Shown here one piece after another: positions 13,313-20,714 of a DNA stretch of 44,747 nucleotides. The first letter of the stretch is position 1. The number at the start of each line of letters is the position of its first letter. Source of the stretch: Idiomarina baltica OS145 (lineage in GTDB: Bacteria > Pseudomonadota > Gammaproteobacteria > Enterobacterales > Alteromonadaceae); NCBI RefSeq assembly GCF_000152885.1, contig NZ_CH672407.1, positions 10,212 through 54,958 of the forward strand, given 5' to 3'. The notes beneath the pieces were generated by a model, which saw only the letters and a program-made list of their open reading frames with translations, did no database searches and was not told where the DNA came from. Both the position numbers and the translations under genes were made by a program.

Positions 13313-15076
13313 ATGAAAAATGATACTACCGCTGTGTCTTTCCAAGACATGGCATTGCCTTCTGTTGTCTTAAATCAACTTGAAGCGCTAGGTTTTACAC
13401 AACCTACACCTATCCAACAACAAGCCATTCCTAGCTTATTGGAAGGGAATGATGTATTGGGTGAAGCGCAAACCGGCACGGGTAAAACCGCCGCGTTTTC
13501 ACTGCCAGCTTTAGCTTCAATTGAAGCGAATCAACGTCAAACTCAGATGCTTGTCGTGACGCCGACCCGTGAGCTCGCGATCCAGGTCGCTGATGCCATC
13601 GAAAGCTTCTCTAAGCAAATGAAGGGTATGGAAGTCGCAACCGTTTATGGCGGCAGCGCCTTTGGGCCACAAATTCAAGCGCTAAAACGTGGCGCGTCTG
13701 TAGTTGTTGGTACGCCAGGTCGATTGATCGACTTACTCAACAAGAAAGTGTTGAAGCTTGACGGACTGCGCTTTGCTGTGTTGGATGAAGCCGATGAAAT
13801 GCTAAACATGGGCTTTATTGAAGACATCGAAACTATTTTACAGTCGGTGCCGGATACCGCACAACGTGCGTTGTTCTCGGCGACGATGCCAACCGCTATT
13901 CGTAAGTTAGCCAAAACGTACTTGACGGATCCTGTGAACATTCGTATTGCTCCCGTAGAGCAGGCGAAGGCGAACATTCGTCAGCGCGCATGGAAAGTCA
14001 TGGGCATGACTAAAATGACAGCATTGACTCGTCTTTTAGAAGTGACTGAATATCAACGCGCGTTAGTGTTCGTGCGTACGCGTCAAGATACTATGGACGT
14101 GGCAGAGCTTTTACAGCGCCAAGGATTCCGTGCAGCACCTTTGAGTGGTGATTTGAACCAAGCACAACGTGAACAAACAGTCACTCAATTGCGTAGCGGC
14201 CACATTAAAGTGCTCGTAGCAACAGACGTTGTCGCGCGTGGTCTTGATGTACCCGAAATTACTCACGTCATTAACTACGATCTACCGAGTGACACCGAGT
14301 CATACGTTCACCGTATCGGTCGTACCGGTCGTGCAGGTCGTAGCGGCGAGGCTATCTTGTTCTATCGCGGTAAAGAGCGTCACTTGTTACGTCATTATGA
14401 AAAACTGACGAACGGTTCAATTGAATACTTTGACGTACCTTCAGCAGAAGAACTGAGTCGCTTCCGCCAAGAGCAATTGCAGCAAAGCCTATTGAAGCAA
14501 CTTGAGTCGGATGTTGACAGCAACGTTCAGAAGCTTCTCAGCAGTTGGTTAGCTGACGGGTCGATGACCGCTGAACAGATCGCGCTGAGCCTATTGGCTC
14601 AACGTAACCAGCAACAGCCGTTGTTCGTGAAAGAAGAGCGTCGTCCGCGTCCTGAACGCGCAGAGCGTGCTGATCGTGATAACGGACGTCCTCAGCGTGG
14701 TGAAAAGCGTGTACGCGCGACCACTAAACGTGTGCCGGATAGCGAGTTCGATACTTATAAGATTCAGGTCGGCCGTGACCACGGTGCGCGTCCAGGCGAT
14801 ATCGTGGGTGCCATCGCCAATGAAGCTGAGATCGATAGCCAATTCATTGGTCAGATTCAACTGTTCGCACAGCACTCGTTGGTACAACTGCCCAAAGGGA
14901 TGCCTGCTGAATTGAAGAAAGCGTTGCAACGCACACGCGTGCGTCAGCAGCCGATGGCACTTGAGTTATCTGATAGTCCGCTTAAGAAAATGCCGCCTCG
15001 CGCGAGTAAAGGCAACGGCGACAATCGCCGCCGCGCTCCGCGTAAAGGTCAACCTGCTGCACGTCGATTCAATTAA
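13313..15076 (+). CDS. deaD: ATP-dependent RNA helicase DeaD (CsdA)
   Basis: Cold-shock DEAD-box helicase acting in 50S ribosome assembly and mRNA turnover. Motifs in order: Q motif (QPTPIQQQAIP), I AQTGTGKT, Ia PTRELAIQ, II DEADEM, III SAT, then VI HRIGRTGRAGRSG. A DbpA-like RNA-binding domain follows near residues 480-555 (YKIQVGRDHGARPGDIVGAI). The tail after about residue 545 is basic and rich in R, K, P and G. At 587 residues it is slightly shorter than the E. coli protein (629), mainly in this tail. Only a weak GAG precedes the ATG. Its stop shares the TTAA at 15073-15076 with the converging blc gene. Confidence 0.95.
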   Translation: MKNDTTAVSFQDMALPSVVLNQLEALGFTQPTPIQQQAIPSLLEGNDVLGEAQTGTGKTAAFSLPALASIEANQRQTQMLVVTPTRELAIQVADAIESFSKQMKGMEVATVYGGSAFGPQIQALKRGASVVVGTPGRLIDLLNKKVLKLDGLRFAVLDEADEMLNMGFIEDIETILQSVPDTAQRALFSATMPTAIRKLAKTYLTDPVNIRIAPVEQAKANIRQRAWKVMGMTKMTALTRLLEVTEYQRALVFVRTRQDTMDVAELLQRQGFRAAPLSGDLNQAQREQTVTQLRSGHIKVLVATDVVARGLDVPEITHVINYDLPSDTESYVHRIGRTGRAGRSGEAILFYRGKERHLLRHYEKLTNGSIEYFDVPSAEELSRFRQEQLQQSLLKQLESDVDSNVQKLLSSWLADGSMTAEQIALSLLAQRNQQQPLFVKEERRPRPERAERADRDNGRPQRGEKRVRATTKRVPDSEFDTYKIQVGRDHGARPGDIVGAIANEAEIDSQFIGQIQLFAQHSLVQLPKGMPAELKKALQRTRVRQQPMALELSDSPLKKMPPRASKGNGDNRRRAPRKGQPAARRFN

Positions 15077-15633
15077 TCGGCGTTAGCTAACCCGATGTCG
15101 GCCAGAGATTGTGTGATAATCATCTGGTCGATATCATATCCCCACTGTTTTGCTTTAGCTAATGCAAAGTCAATATCGCTTTGATCGACATTAGGTGAGC
15201 GCGCCAAAAACCAAAAGTAGTCGTGTGAATCGCTCGTAACAATCGCCATTTTGTAGTTGGGTGATAACCAGCTGACATAGTATCCCCCATAAAACGGCCA
15301 GAAAAAGGTTACCTTGTAAGCGGCTGACATGCCTTCTACAGGCTCGGCTTTGCCAATTGCGGTCTGCCATTCGTCATCCACTACATTATAACCGCGATTA
15401 GTCACCTCGATAGTGCCGTCAGCGTTGAGTCGGTACTCTGCGGTGACGCCTTGCAGGTTTTCTTCAAAGCTGTGCGGCATACGGATAATTTCATACCATT
15501 TGCCCAAATATTTTTCCGCTGAGAACTGTTTTACTGTCGGCGCCACGGGCGTCGGGTCAGATTTGCAGCCGGGTAGGGCGAACAACACAAATAAAGATAA
15601 GAGACCGAGTAACGACTTGTTTAAATAACTCAT
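15073..15633 (-). CDS. blc: Outer-membrane lipoprotein Blc (bacterial lipocalin)
   Basis: Lipocalin that binds lysophospholipids or fatty acids at the outer membrane under envelope stress. A lipoprotein signal ends in the lipobox ALPGC (Cys22 or 23), with KSD after it. The lipocalin GxW motif is YLGKWYEI, followed by a second conserved stretch near YYVSWLSPNYKMAIVTS and DYFWFLARSP. At 186 residues it has family size. It is the last gene of the flavin reductase-photolyase-blc operon, 2 nt after the photolyase stop. Lipocalin genes are known members of light and singlet-oxygen regulons in several proteobacteria, in line with this setting. Confidence 0.93.
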   Translation of the reverse strand: MSYLNKSLLGLLSLFVLFALPGCKSDPTPVAPTVKQFSAEKYLGKWYEIIRMPHSFEENLQGVTAEYRLNADGTIEVTNRGYNVVDDEWQTAIGKAEPVEGMSAAYKVTFFWPFYGGYYVSWLSPNYKMAIVTSDSHDYFWFLARSPNVDQSDIDFALAKAKQWGYDIDQMIITQSLADIGLANAD

Positions 15634-15635
15634 GA

Positions 15636-17192
15636 TTATAAATCATCCATGTTGTTTAAATAATATTCTGCTTGCTTGGCAAGCGCCTTTTGTTCTTCTT
15701 GCGTTTTCTTGTTCCACACCGAATACATCATTGCCATGCGTTGATTATTACTAAAGTGTGATTCATGTCGAGCCAAGAATTGCCAATAAAGCGAATTAAA
15801 CGGACATGACCCCTCGCCAGTTTTCTTATCCGGATTATAGCGACACTGAGAACAATGGTGACTCATTTTCTTTATATAATTTGCGCTTGAAATATAGGGT
15901 TTGGTGGCTAGCACACCATTGTCAGCATATTGACTCATACCACGGGTATTAGGGAGTTCTACCCACTCGAGTGCATCAATATAAATGCCGAGATACCATC
16001 CATCGACTTGATCGGGATCGCAGCCCGCTAATAGTGCAAAATTTCCAGTCAGCATAAGACGTTGAATGTGGTGTGCGTAAGCGTACTTTAAAGACTGTTT
16101 AATGGCTTGCGATAGACAACGCATATGTGTCTCACCATCCCAAAAAAACTTCGGCAGATCGCGTTGATGTCCGAGCGCATTAAGATTCTTATATTCAGGC
16201 ATGTGATGCCAGTAAATGGCGCGGATAAATTCTCGCCAACCAATAATTTGTCGAATAAACCCTTCAACTTGATTGATACTGATTGTGCCTTCATTTTCGC
16301 GCCAATGAGTGAGAACTGCGTTCACGACTTCCATTGGATGTAACATTTTGCTGTTCATCGCAAATGATAAACGTGAATGGTACAAGCTCCATGCGTGATC
16401 GTGCACTTCAGTATCCGTTATCGCATCTTGGTAGGTGCCAAAGTGAGCTAATTGGTGTTGGCAAAAGAATGATAAAATATCCCGAGCTTGCTTGCGTGTG
16501 GTCGGCCAAATAAAGTGTTGAGGATCGATGTCTCCAAAGTAATTAATATCCTGTTGTGTCACCATTTGGTGAATATCTGTGACATCATTCGCTGGGCAGC
16601 TTGGGGCAATAACAGAGCTACTTTTTGGTAGCTTGTTACGGTTATCATGATCATAGTTCCACTGACCACCTTCGGGTTTGTCGCCCTCCATCATGATATC
16701 GAACTGCTTTCGTACGCGACGGTAAAAGCTCTCCATCAAAAAATTATCACGACCGGGAAACCACTCAGCCAAAACAGTTCGTTGGGTAAGGAAGTGCTCA
16801 CTGTCGACCCAGTCAATGTGTATATCTTCTTTCCCCGCCCAGCTACGGAGTTGATGATCAACCCGGTACTCGTCGGGCAGCATGCAGCTCAGCTTCGCGT
16901 TGGGGTGCTGGGCTAATATGGCCGCTAAGTTCTGCGTAAGTGACTGGGTGTTGTTTGCATCATCCAGTTTCATGTAATGAACTCGATGACCTGCTTGCTC
17001 AATGGCGCTGGCAAAATTACGCATCGCGGCAAAAAAAGCAACGATCTTTTGTATATGGTGTTTGACGTAATCAGTTTCTTGGCGCATCTCCATCATCACG
17101 TACAGCACGTTATCATGCTGCGTGCGCCACCAAGTGTGCTTCGCGTTAAGCTGGTCGCCCAATACTAAGCGAACTTCCCTTATGTCACTCAT
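15636..17192 (-). CDS. FeS-type (6-4) photolyase / bacterial cryptochrome (PhrB/CryB-like, photolyase-related protein)
   Basis: Flavoprotein of the iron-sulfur bacterial cryptochrome/photolyase class, whose characterised members repair (6-4) photoproducts or act as photoreceptors. The N-terminal Rossmann-like antenna domain begins VRLVLGDQLNAKHTWW. The C-terminal FAD domain carries four cysteines: C359, C447, C450 and C463. Their spacing (88, 3, 13) equals that of the cluster ligands I recall for Agrobacterium PhrB (350, 438, 441, 454). GDQLN, REFIRAIYW and WVELPNTRGMSQYADNG are typical of the class. At 518 residues it is normal length. It overlaps the flavin reductase gene by 8 nt. Confidence 0.92.
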   Translation of the reverse strand: MSDIREVRLVLGDQLNAKHTWWRTQHDNVLYVMMEMRQETDYVKHHIQKIVAFFAAMRNFASAIEQAGHRVHYMKLDDANNTQSLTQNLAAILAQHPNAKLSCMLPDEYRVDHQLRSWAGKEDIHIDWVDSEHFLTQRTVLAEWFPGRDNFLMESFYRRVRKQFDIMMEGDKPEGGQWNYDHDNRNKLPKSSSVIAPSCPANDVTDIHQMVTQQDINYFGDIDPQHFIWPTTRKQARDILSFFCQHQLAHFGTYQDAITDTEVHDHAWSLYHSRLSFAMNSKMLHPMEVVNAVLTHWRENEGTISINQVEGFIRQIIGWREFIRAIYWHHMPEYKNLNALGHQRDLPKFFWDGETHMRCLSQAIKQSLKYAYAHHIQRLMLTGNFALLAGCDPDQVDGWYLGIYIDALEWVELPNTRGMSQYADNGVLATKPYISSANYIKKMSHHCSQCRYNPDKKTGEGSCPFNSLYWQFLARHESHFSNNQRMAMMYSVWNKKTQEEQKALAKQAEYYLNNMDDL

Positions 17193-17850
17193 CGTACGTG
17201 TCTGCCCCCTTGAGAGGGATCTCCTCTAGGGCTTTATCGGGTTTAGCATAACTGAGTCGAAATAGTCTCGAGGCGCTGTGATAGCTATCAAGGCCAGATA
17301 CCGCGACGGTCTCTAATGTGTTCAAATCAATAAAGCCATCTTCTTGGATCGCCTCCTCGTCAGTTTGAATCCATTGAATTTCGCCAATGACAAAGTCGGT
17401 ACCATTGTGCGTAATATTAGTAATTTCGACGAGCTTTACACCCATTGAGAGCGGGCTTTCTTTAACGAAAGGGGCGTGAAAACCATTACAACGGTCAGGC
17501 GTTAAGCCGGTTGCTTCAAACTCCGATACCTTTCTATCGTATCGCGCTGCCGTTTGATGTGCCGCTTTAACTATCGATTGGGATACATGATTAATCGTAT
17601 AAACACCTGTTTCTTCGATATTTTCCAATGTATGGCGCTCAACTGAATCGGGGCGCATGATGAAACCAATGAGGGGAGGGTTAGCGCCTAAATGAACCAC
17701 TGAGCTGACGATTGCCAAGTTGTCTTCATTTTTACGGCTACTAGTACCAATTAAGTTAGCGCTTTTATAACCCGATAATGAGTTGATGAAATTAACACGA
17801 TGACGGTTATCCATATTAGCCAAGTCGGCCTGAGCGATATGCTTTGTCAT
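17185..17850 (-). CDS. Flavin reductase-like, FMN-binding split-barrel protein
   Basis: Member of the flavin-reductase-like family (pnp-oxidase-type split barrel) that typically binds FMN and reduces flavin with NAD(P)H. LSGYKSANLIGTSSRKNEDNLAIVSSVVHLGANPPLIGFIM matches the flavin-binding region. At 221 residues it is a complete single domain. AGAGGAG stands 10 nt before ATG 17850. It is the first gene of an operon with the FeS photolyase and Blc. It may supply reduced flavin to the photolyase or respond to oxidative damage; this is inferred from position, not shown. Confidence 0.85.
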   Translation of the reverse strand: MTKHIAQADLANMDNRHRVNFINSLSGYKSANLIGTSSRKNEDNLAIVSSVVHLGANPPLIGFIMRPDSVERHTLENIEETGVYTINHVSQSIVKAAHQTAARYDRKVSEFEATGLTPDRCNGFHAPFVKESPLSMGVKLVEITNITHNGTDFVIGEIQWIQTDEEAIQEDGFIDLNTLETVAVSGLDSYHSASRLFRLSYAKPDKALEEIPLKGADTYDE

Positions 17851-17964: not shown

Positions 17965-18717
17965 ATGAGCGACGCACAACAAAAAGTTAATGTAATCTGC
18001 ATCAAATGGGGTGACAAATACGGGAACGACTACGTCAATACATTGTACTCGATGGTCAGCCGTAACCTTAGCTTACCCTATCGGTTTGTATGCTTTACAG
18101 ACGAAGCAGAAGGTATTCGTGATGAGGTCGAAGTTAAGCCGATTCCAAAAATTGGGTTTGAAGACTTCGACGAGAAGAAAGCATGGGCGAAAGCGCATGG
18201 GTGGTTGAAGTTAACGTGTTTTGCGAATCCTCTCTCTGATTTAACCGGACCCACATTGTTTCTTGATTTGGACATCGTCATTGTTGGTTCGCTCGATGAC
18301 TTTTTTAAACCGGAAGGTGACTTCATGGTTATAAAAGAGTGGGACAAGTCAGATGCTACCGGTAATACCTCGGTATTCCGTTTTGAAGCGGGGGCTCACG
18401 AGGATGCGCTGGATTATTTAAAGGCCGATCCCGAGAAAGCAACGGAGTCTGTTCGCAACGAACAAGAGTACATTACACAATTTGTCGACCGCCAAAATCG
18501 TCTGAAGTATTGGCCAGAGAAGTGGTGTCGAAGCTTCAAACGTCATTGTATTCGACCGTTCCCGTTGAGCTTTTTCCAACAGCCGCGGATCCCCGAAGAT
18601 GCGCGCGTTATTATTTTCCACGGTAAGCCACATCCCGATGATGCGTTAGCGGGTCGTAGCGGTAAGTGGTATCGTAAAGTGCTACCAACCCGTTGGATAG
18701 CTGAATACTGGCAATAA
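17965..18717 (+). CDS. Putative GT-A-type glycosyltransferase, probably LPS core
   Basis: A 250-residue soluble protein beginning with a nucleotide-sugar-binding-like strand (VNVICIKWGDKYGNDYVNTL), followed by LPYRFVCFTDE. A DxD metal motif (D101, D103 in LFLDLDIVIVGSL) matches glycogenin-like / GT8-like folds. A C-terminal HGKPHP is like the metal-binding HxxGxxKP-type motif of GT8 enzymes. GGGAG lies 5 nt before the ATG. The stop is 2 nt from the WaaA-KdkA fusion, so a role in inner-core LPS or a related glycan is likely. The sugar donor and acceptor are unknown. Confidence 0.75.
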   Translation: MSDAQQKVNVICIKWGDKYGNDYVNTLYSMVSRNLSLPYRFVCFTDEAEGIRDEVEVKPIPKIGFEDFDEKKAWAKAHGWLKLTCFANPLSDLTGPTLFLDLDIVIVGSLDDFFKPEGDFMVIKEWDKSDATGNTSVFRFEAGAHEDALDYLKADPEKATESVRNEQEYITQFVDRQNRLKYWPEKWCRSFKRHCIRPFPLSFFQQPRIPEDARVIIFHGKPHPDDALAGRSGKWYRKVLPTRWIAEYWQ

Positions 18718-18719
18718 GC

Positions 18720-20714
18720 ATGTTACGTTGGCTCTACAGCGGTGTGATGACAGGTGTCGCACCGCTGGCGCTTGCTTGGTTTTATTACAGAGGCCGAAAA
18801 GATGCTGGTTATCGAGCGCATCATTGGGAGCGACTGGGTCGCTTGGAGGTTACTGACACTGAGCAAAACGGATTACTCATCCATACCGTATCGGTGGGTG
18901 AGACCATCGCTGCGCGTCAGTTGATTCAACAAGCTATTGAAGAGTTTCCGCATAGCCCCATCACGATTAGTTGCATGACGCCTACTGCACGTCGTCTCAT
19001 CGAGCAAAGTTTTGGTGATAGGGTGTCTGTGTGTTACTTGCCTATCGATCACCCTTGTGCAGTGCGGAGCTTCCTGTCGAAGCTCAGACCGCGCGCGATT
19101 TGGGTGATGGAAACTGAGCTTTGGCCTAATTTGGTGTATCACGCCGGCCAACGTCATATTCCTGTGAGTCTCCTCAACGCCCGTCTATCAAAACGTTCAG
19201 CACGCGGTTACGCCCGAGTCGGGAAACTCATGCGTGAAAGCTGGCACAGCCTAGCTTATGTTGGCGCACAGTCGCGTGCCACAGCAAAGCGTATGTTATG
19301 TTTGGGGGTAAGAGATACGAGGCTCTATATTGATGGTAACTTGAAATATGATGTTTCCGTGCCCACATCAGAAAAAGTAGCCGCAGAGGAATTACTGAAA
19401 TTGCGCGGAGAACACTTAGTTTGGCTGGCTGCAAGTACGCACCCAGGCGAGGAACAAGCGGTACTGAGCGCGCATCAAAAACTGTTAGAAACGTATCCAG
19501 CGATGCTGCTGATTTGGGCACCACGTCATCCTGAGCGGTTTGATGAAGTTGCAGCGCAACTTCAGAGTTCTGAACTCGTTTGGATGCGCCGTAGTGAGTT
19601 GAGTGATCAAGGTGTCCCATCGGACTGTAATGTGTTGCTAGCCGACTCAATTGGCGAGATGTTGAAGTGGTGCAGTATTGCTCAAGTGACTTTTGTCGGT
19701 GGAAGCTTAATTGAGCGCGGCGGACATAATCCGCTTGAAGCCGTAGCGGCAGGTTCAGCTGTCGTTAGCGGAAGAAAGATATTTAATTTTGCCGAGGTGT
19801 ATCGGCTGTTAGACGAGCAGCGGGCTGTGCATTGGGTTAAGGACTTAGATCTTGCCACACCACTGCAATATTTATTTGATAATGATTCATTGAGAAAAAC
19901 GAGCGTAAGTGCCGCTGAAAACGTGCTTAGCACGCATCAGGGCGCCAGTCGACGTATGCTTAAGCATGCGCAAAGATTTAGCGATATAGGACAGCAAATG
20001 ATAGCGACATTTACGACAAAACGTGATGTGATTAAGTTTGATAAGGACGTGTTGCCAGAATTTGAGGATAACTTTTTTTCTGCCAAATATTGGCAGCAGA
20101 AAAAGGCCATAGCAGGCAATGCGACGGGCCGTGCAACTGTTTGGTTTATTCAACAGGGGGATCACGGCATGGTGTTGAGGCACTATTACCGCGGTGGACT
20201 TGTAGGTAAGGTCAATAAAGATAAGTTTATGCGAGAGCCGGTAGAGCGAAGCCGTGCTATCGCAGAGTTTGATTTGTTGGTAAAGCTACGCAATCAAAAT
20301 TTACCTGTACCTCGGCCTATTGCTGCACGTATGCGCAAAGTGGGTGTCATGAGTTACACCGCAGATATTTTAGTTGAAGTGATTCCTGGCGCTGTGGATG
20401 TTTACCGATTGCTCCGTGAACGTCAATTGAATGTAGAGCAATGGCAGTCTTTAGGTGCTGCGATACGTCAGTTGCACGATAAGAACGTGTTCCACTCAGA
20501 CTTGAATTGCCACAATATCATGCTCGATGATAATGATAAGCCTTGGATCGTTGATTTTGATAAGTGTGGATTTAGAGAGCCCGGTGAGTGGAAAAAGGAA
20601 AACTTAGACAGGTTACTGCGCTCATTGAAGAAAGAAAAAGCTAAGTACGATACCTTTTATTGGAAAGAGAGCCGTGATTGGCCCGAGTTATTGACCGGTT
20701 ACGAAAAAGGTTAG
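18720..20714 (+). CDS. waaA-kdkA: Bifunctional Kdo transferase-Kdo kinase fusion (WaaA-KdkA)
   Basis: Residues 1 to about 430 are 3-deoxy-D-manno-octulosonic acid transferase (WaaA/KdtA), which adds Kdo to lipid IVA at the inner membrane. It has an N-terminal membrane anchor, catalytic E61 in HTVSVGE, then METELWPN, APRHPERF and GGSLIERGGHNPLEA. Residues from about 437 to 664 are Kdo kinase (KdkA), with LRHYYRGGLVGKVNKDKF, the catalytic loop HSDLNCHN (D594) and the metal Asp in DFDKCG. Each half has the full length of its stand-alone family (about 425 and 240), with almost no linker and an uninterrupted frame. Kinase-bearing species usually have a WaaA that adds a single Kdo, then phosphorylated, so the fusion joins consecutive steps. 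Confidence 0.93.
   Translation: MLRWLYSGVMTGVAPLALAWFYYRGRKDAGYRAHHWERLGRLEVTDTEQNGLLIHTVSVGETIAARQLIQQAIEEFPHSPITISCMTPTARRLIEQSFGDRVSVCYLPIDHPCAVRSFLSKLRPRAIWVMETELWPNLVYHAGQRHIPVSLLNARLSKRSARGYARVGKLMRESWHSLAYVGAQSRATAKRMLCLGVRDTRLYIDGNLKYDVSVPTSEKVAAEELLKLRGEHLVWLAASTHPGEEQAVLSAHQKLLETYPAMLLIWAPRHPERFDEVAAQLQSSELVWMRRSELSDQGVPSDCNVLLADSIGEMLKWCSIAQVTFVGGSLIERGGHNPLEAVAAGSAVVSGRKIFNFAEVYRLLDEQRAVHWVKDLDLATPLQYLFDNDSLRKTSVSAAENVLSTHQGASRRMLKHAQRFSDIGQQMIATFTTKRDVIKFDKDVLPEFEDNFFSAKYWQQKKAIAGNATGRATVWFIQQGDHGMVLRHYYRGGLVGKVNKDKFMREPVERSRAIAEFDLLVKLRNQNLPVPRPIAARMRKVGVMSYTADILVEVIPGAVDVYRLLRERQLNVEQWQSLGAAIRQLHDKNVFHSDLNCHNIMLDDNDKPWIVDFDKCGFREPGEWKKENLDRLLRSLKKEKAKYDTFYWKESRDWPELLTGYEKG

Follow-up and report, generated by a model that had tools for sequence, protein, structure and literature searches.

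A fused waaA-kdkA gene in Idiomarina baltica OS145 and its relatives, with a conserved internal start that probably yields free KdkA

The window, i.e., the whole stretch of 44,747 nucleotides of Idiomarina baltica OS145 that was analysed (contig NZ_CH672407.1, positions 10,212 to 54,958 of the forward strand), contains a gene that, as judged from its sequence, encodes WaaA (Kdo transferase) followed by KdkA (Kdo kinase) in one polypeptide. The features of the locus are summarized in Table 1. The ATG of the fused frame lies 2 nt after the stop codon of the upstream gene. At 15073-17850, on the minus strand, three adjacent genes overlap or sit a few bases apart; they are taken here to encode a lipocalin, a photolyase-like protein and a flavin-reductase-like protein, and probably form one operon.

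Table 1. Features of the waaA-kdkA locus (positions within the window)
Feature	Position	Strand	Remarks
Upstream gene, putative glycosyltransferase	17965..18717	+	250 aa, DxD-like stretch
Fused waaA-kdkA frame	18720..20714	+	single ORF, ATG start, 664 aa
WaaA half	18720..19976	+	residues 1-419; E61 at 18900-18902; NF004388; fold matches 2xci, 4bfc
AGGA, Shine-Dalgarno (SD)-like motif	19988..19991	+	before internal ATG; SD motif kept in 44/44 g1 and g27 fusions
Nested in-frame kdkA frame	19998..20714	+	internal ATG (M427, 19998-20000), 238 aa
KdkA half	20001..20708	+	residues 428-663; D594 at 20499-20501; DFD at 20553-20561; NF002475

A Pfam scan of the 664-residue frame placed Glycos_transf_N (PF04413; 184 bits against a cut-off of 23.9) at residues 36-212 and the Kdo/WaaP kinase family (157 bits against a cut-off of 21.3) at residues 456-661. 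Among the NCBIfam models, the KdkA equivalog NF002475 covers residues 428-663 with 281 bits, above its cut-off of 142, and the WaaA model NF004388 covers residues 1-419 with 423.9 bits, slightly below a cut-off of 438 that is a naming threshold and no property of the enzyme; NF004388 was matched by 30/30 aligned fusions. With the KdkA model alone reaching its naming cut-off, automatic annotation may label the fused protein a kinase and leave waaA seemingly absent. The open reading frame, the Pfam scan and the NCBIfam matches confirm the one uninterrupted frame of the preliminary description, and its wording that there is almost no linker was right, as eight residues separate the end of the WaaA model from the start of the KdkA model. 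An AlphaFold2 model of the fused protein has a pLDDT of 90.5 and a pTM of 0.84. In this model the WaaA part resembles the solved WaaA structures 2xci and 4bfc (PDB fold search), residues 2-24 form an N-terminal helix that is hydrophobic on visual inspection, and residues 428-432 form the first strand of the kinase.

The active-site signatures listed in the preliminary description (E61 in SVGE, GGSLIERGGHNPLEA, D594 in HSDLNCHN, and DFDKCG) are present as claimed. Conservation was counted in an aligned subset of 30 of the 64 fused genes found, and the active-site residues are invariant in 30/30: E61 together with G335, H336, N337, P338, L339 and E340 of the GGHNPLE motif in the WaaA half, and D594, N599, D612 and D614 in the kinase half. 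E61 is presumably the catalytic glutamate and GGHNPLE a conserved WaaA motif; D594, N599 and D612 are assumed to be the catalytic and metal-binding Asp and Asn residues of the kinase.

The 64 fused genes, found by listing genomes with the same architecture as the preliminary description had proposed, belong to six genera: 18 to Idiomarina (g1), 26 to genus g27 and 20 to four other genera of the family. Within the family, 34 of 196 genomes carry the fused frame (g1 8/8, g27 6/6, g18 7/7, g45 7/7, g42 5/6 and g48 1/1), and at the genus level it was found in 18/19 genomes of Idiomarina and 26/26 of g27. With this many family and genus genomes sharing it, the frame is neither a chance product nor a missed stop; a sequencing error at the junction, raised earlier as a possible explanation, is rejected on the same 64 genes in six genera. 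In g42 the match of genome G081 comes in two pieces of one frame, and the family search gave no match in the draft genome G136. Among named relatives, the fusion is present in an Idiomarinaceae MAG (98%), Idiomarina sp. MD25a (94%) and I. fontislapidosi (85%), and likewise in I. seosinensis and I. rhizosphaerae; 5/33 loci in the search of named relatives were fused, the remaining 28 being Aeromonas loci with the WaaA part only. Among the matches listed in a search of the class (369 genomes, 338 matching), a full-length fusion occurred in one genome only (G000), and among those listed in a search of the order with the kinase half (394 genomes, 299 matching), all frames of more than 600 aa came from the family. 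In G464 and G352, class genomes that belong to one family, the WaaA match falls within open frames of 855 and 669 aa, respectively, that have no KdkA match; these long frames possibly reflect an N-terminal extension, or merely an open upstream frame.

Profile searches of the host genome (completeness 98.89%) for a second waaA or kdkA, a check that had also been proposed, found no further copy of either. There is one WaaA match, and the Kdo-kinase family has two matches: the fused gene, and a frame that scores 22.5 bits and so barely passes the cut-off of 21.3. The latter, to judge by its sequence, is probably a Ser/Thr protein kinase, and no second kdkA was found elsewhere in this genome.

The joint of the two halves carries a possible start of its own. 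M427 stands at the start of the KdkA model and immediately ahead of the first kinase strand in the AlphaFold2 model. An SD motif was defined as AGGA, GGAG or GAGG within the 11 nt ending 4 nt before an ATG. An in-frame ATG with such a motif is present at the joint in 44/44 fusions of g1 and g27 versus 4.7 expected from synonymous shuffling with the proteins kept, where the 44 genes are related by descent (with 31 distinct 21-nt contexts among them) and the site was defined after the pattern had been seen, as the best ATG within 16 codons, the shuffles being treated alike. The spacing from motif to ATG is 6-11 nt in 44/44. At the other in-frame ATGs of the same genes the motif occurs in 3/509 cases, in a control that counts single ATGs where the site takes the best one; the mean anti-SD energy is -5.2 at the internal site versus -1.3 at these other ATGs. 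The start of the fusion itself (nearest ATG) has the motif in 1/44 genes and a mean anti-SD energy of -1.8. Judged gene by gene on SD energy alone, p<=0.05 was reached in 1/18 g1 genes and 15/26 g27 genes.

The linker around this site is variable, with 38 distinct 22-aa stretches among the 44 genes and Met in one alignment column in 35/44, and since the signal is kept while the peptides differ, different peptides encode the same SD motif and start. Where an Arg precedes the site it is encoded by AGG in 18/19 cases, whereas elsewhere in these genes AGG accounts for 1.5% (g27) or 4.7% (g1) of Arg codons. The internal ATG precedes the first kinase Trp by 31-34 residues in 44/44. For comparison, genome G204 is the only Idiomarina with separate waaA and kdkA (10 nt apart), and its kdkA has 31 residues to the first Trp and AAAGG ahead of the ATG. 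SD sequences are depleted inside coding regions, according to the excerpted part of PMC5100845.

The internal start is a property of part of the fusions. The signal is at the site in 4/5 fusions of g42, the fifth having it further upstream, and outside g42 most of the other fusions are without it: 0/7 in g18, where one (G146) carries it further upstream, 1/7 in g45 (0.6 expected) and 0/1 in g48. In g1 and g27 the sequence comparisons argue firmly that the internal SD motif and start are under selection beyond what the protein requires, and two products, the WaaA-KdkA fusion and free KdkA, are probably made from the gene. The earlier interpretation stands in part: the conserved active sites and architecture, the finding of no second waaA or kdkA in the genome and the agreement with a published structure (see below) support it, whereas its single enzyme is incomplete, as the conserved internal ribosome-binding site (RBS) and start codon predict an additional, free KdkA.

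The best of the other explanations is that the full fusion is the sole product, the internal SD motif and ATG being either a fossil of the start that kdkA once had or a matter of chance. The signal is positioned exactly where a fossil start would be, and most g18 and g45 fusions are without it; a fossil, however, is expected to decay, and 44/44 genes of g1 and g27 keep the signal across 38 distinct linker stretches and by way of rare AGG Arg codons (18/19), which makes this explanation unlikely. Somewhat less probable still is a translation pause that lets WaaA fold, with no initiation. The SD-like stretch is situated at a domain boundary, as a pause would have it, but a pause requires no ATG, and 44/44 retain one in frame, 6-11 nt downstream. 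A known gene of the kind predicted here is cas8b, within which an internal in-frame start gives Cas11b (excerpt of PMC11899642); the function differs in that system, and here the predicted start is at the joint of a two-enzyme fusion.

From sequence, the activities proposed for the two halves are Kdo transfer and phosphorylation of Kdo at O-4. The WaaA half, predicted to be membrane-associated, would place Kdo on the lipid A precursor, and the tethered kinase would phosphorylate its O-4, the hydroxyl otherwise accepting a second Kdo, so that the product would be a single Kdo-4-phosphate, extended later at O-5. The RBS and start codon of the former kdkA would have been retained within the fused gene, and ribosomes probably initiate there too, giving free KdkA. 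The tethered kinase would reach each new Kdo first, and the free kinase would raise the amount of kinase over transferase; tether and extra kinase together would let capping of O-4 beat the addition of a second Kdo. Such a race, with a surplus of kinase, may be the purpose of the arrangement, although G204 manages with separate genes. On balance, a Kdo transferase with an attached Kdo 4-kinase that leads to a single Kdo-4-phosphate, complemented by free KdkA from the internal start, is considered likely.

The single phosphorylated Kdo predicted in the preliminary description agrees with the published lipooligosaccharide (LOS) of Idiomarina zobellii, a strain that may carry the fused gene. In this LOS a single alpha-Kdo bears a phosphate at O-4 and alpha-Glc at O-5, and a Neu is terminal; its description, as excerpted, names no second Kdo and no core heptose (PMC9695755). 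The Kdo-4-phosphate product in the genus is thus already published in that source; what is new here is the conserved SD motif and ATG inside the fused gene.

A bifunctional WaaA half, with the kinase winning in part of the cases, would give mixed Kdo-P and Kdo2 cores. Pasteurella multocida shows such a mixture with separate enzymes, KdtA and KdkA competing for Kdo O-4 and producing two glycoforms (excerpt of PMC5577588), and the specificity of WaaA differs among species (excerpt of PMC3078933). The likeness to P. multocida is that kinase and transferase target the same hydroxyl; the difference is that the proteins are separate and the glycoforms two in that species, while in Idiomarina the enzymes are fused and one form is reported in the genus. 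As the excerpted description of I. zobellii LOS has one Kdo with an O-4 phosphate and no second Kdo (PMC9695755), mixed cores appear improbable. The WaaA tree does not discriminate between mono- and bifunctional WaaA. That the kinase half is inactive or acts on another substrate is very hard to credit: its activity is a prediction, but the KdkA equivalog match (281 bits versus a cut-off of 142), the active-site residues invariant in 30/30, the finding of no other KdkA in the host genome and the Kdo-4-P of I. zobellii (excerpt of PMC9695755) all speak against it.

The preferred reading, a transferase coupled to its competing kinase, has parallels in known systems. Both enzyme families also occur in Haemophilus influenzae and Bordetella pertussis, where they presumably catalyse the same reactions in succession, with the phosphate at Kdo O-4 (PMC10743493 as excerpted, citing Brabetz 2000). 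WaaA (KdtA) and KdkA are two genes and two proteins in those species, in contrast to the one frame here, with a nested kinase start in some fusions. For B. pertussis, removal of kdtA and kdkA was possible only with E. coli kdtA supplied, which suggests a need for either the phosphate or a second Kdo (same excerpt, PMC10743493). Joined or clustered genes for consecutive or related steps of lipid A synthesis are the lpxC/fabZ fusion and the waaA-lpxK clusters; the enzymes are different ones, and waaA-kdkA is absent from the excerpted part of that account (PMC3087551). No description of a WaaA-KdkA fusion was found in searches of the open-licence PMC literature. The reaction of WaaA is central to building the lipid A-core, and the form of the inner core depends on which group O-4 receives, a phosphate or another Kdo. 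In the fused gene the two enzymes that compete for Kdo O-4 are joined, and a nested start could set their ratio; this joining makes the coupling of the two consecutive steps directly testable.

No heptosyltransferase (PF01075) was found in the host genome or in 18/19 genomes of the genus, the sole positive genome being that of G204, the species with split genes. At the G204 locus (L073 217-1796) an apparent heptose bisphosphate phosphatase, identified by reading, adjoins waaA and kdkA. In the family, PF01075 occurs in 9/34 fused genomes (3 of g18, 6 of g45), and the five unfused genomes of g11 have no PF01075 match; the link between the fusion and loss of heptosyltransferase is loose there, and a strict one finds no support on either count. 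A homologue of the upstream gene adjoins the fusion in 18/18 fused g1 and 26/26 g27 loci, and no match to it was found in the 5.5-kb locus of G204. The upstream gene itself gave no Pfam, NCBIfam or PDB-sequence match; its product is a candidate for the transfer of Glc to Kdo. The full interpretation is that one gene gives two proteins, the fused transferase-kinase and a free kinase from a selected internal start whose SD motif is stronger than that of the fusion's own start, and that this would be a device forcing a Kdo-4-phosphate core in bacteria in which no heptosyltransferase was found, by a fusion that evolved at least twice (see below); it is held with moderate confidence.

On the trees of each half the label 'fused' requires four changes, and the fusion of G048, one 85%-complete genome that is the sole representative of its genus in the data set, is placed among unfused relatives. 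The trees were built after removal of near-identical rows (fusions and order sequences) and of partial genes, along with most of the Aeromonas loci and some rows of the class. One clade holding all fusions together with the interspersed unfused rows was rejected by the AU test (p-AU 1.2e-11 for WaaA and 0.015 for KdkA), in which the groups were completed after the trees had been inspected. A single origin for all fusions is rejected on this test, so the fusion, as reconstructed from these sequences, arose at least twice. The unfused genus g11 is nested in the main fusion group on the WaaA tree, and a grouping that excludes it was not rejected (p-AU 0.25). In G043 (L086 2205-4348), waaA and kdkA lie in the same frame with a TAA between them, 15 nt from the kdkA ATG; this arrangement, one step away, is a likely road to fusion. 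For the separate genes of G204, acquisition of WaaA from outside had been suspected from its 43% identity and is disfavoured, as the tree puts this WaaA beside the Idiomarina WaaA (SH-aLRT 95); on that placement, a split of the fusion is the likelier origin. In three family genomes (G158, G050 and G023) a separate kdkA occurs together with two waaA genes, each belonging to a distinct type.
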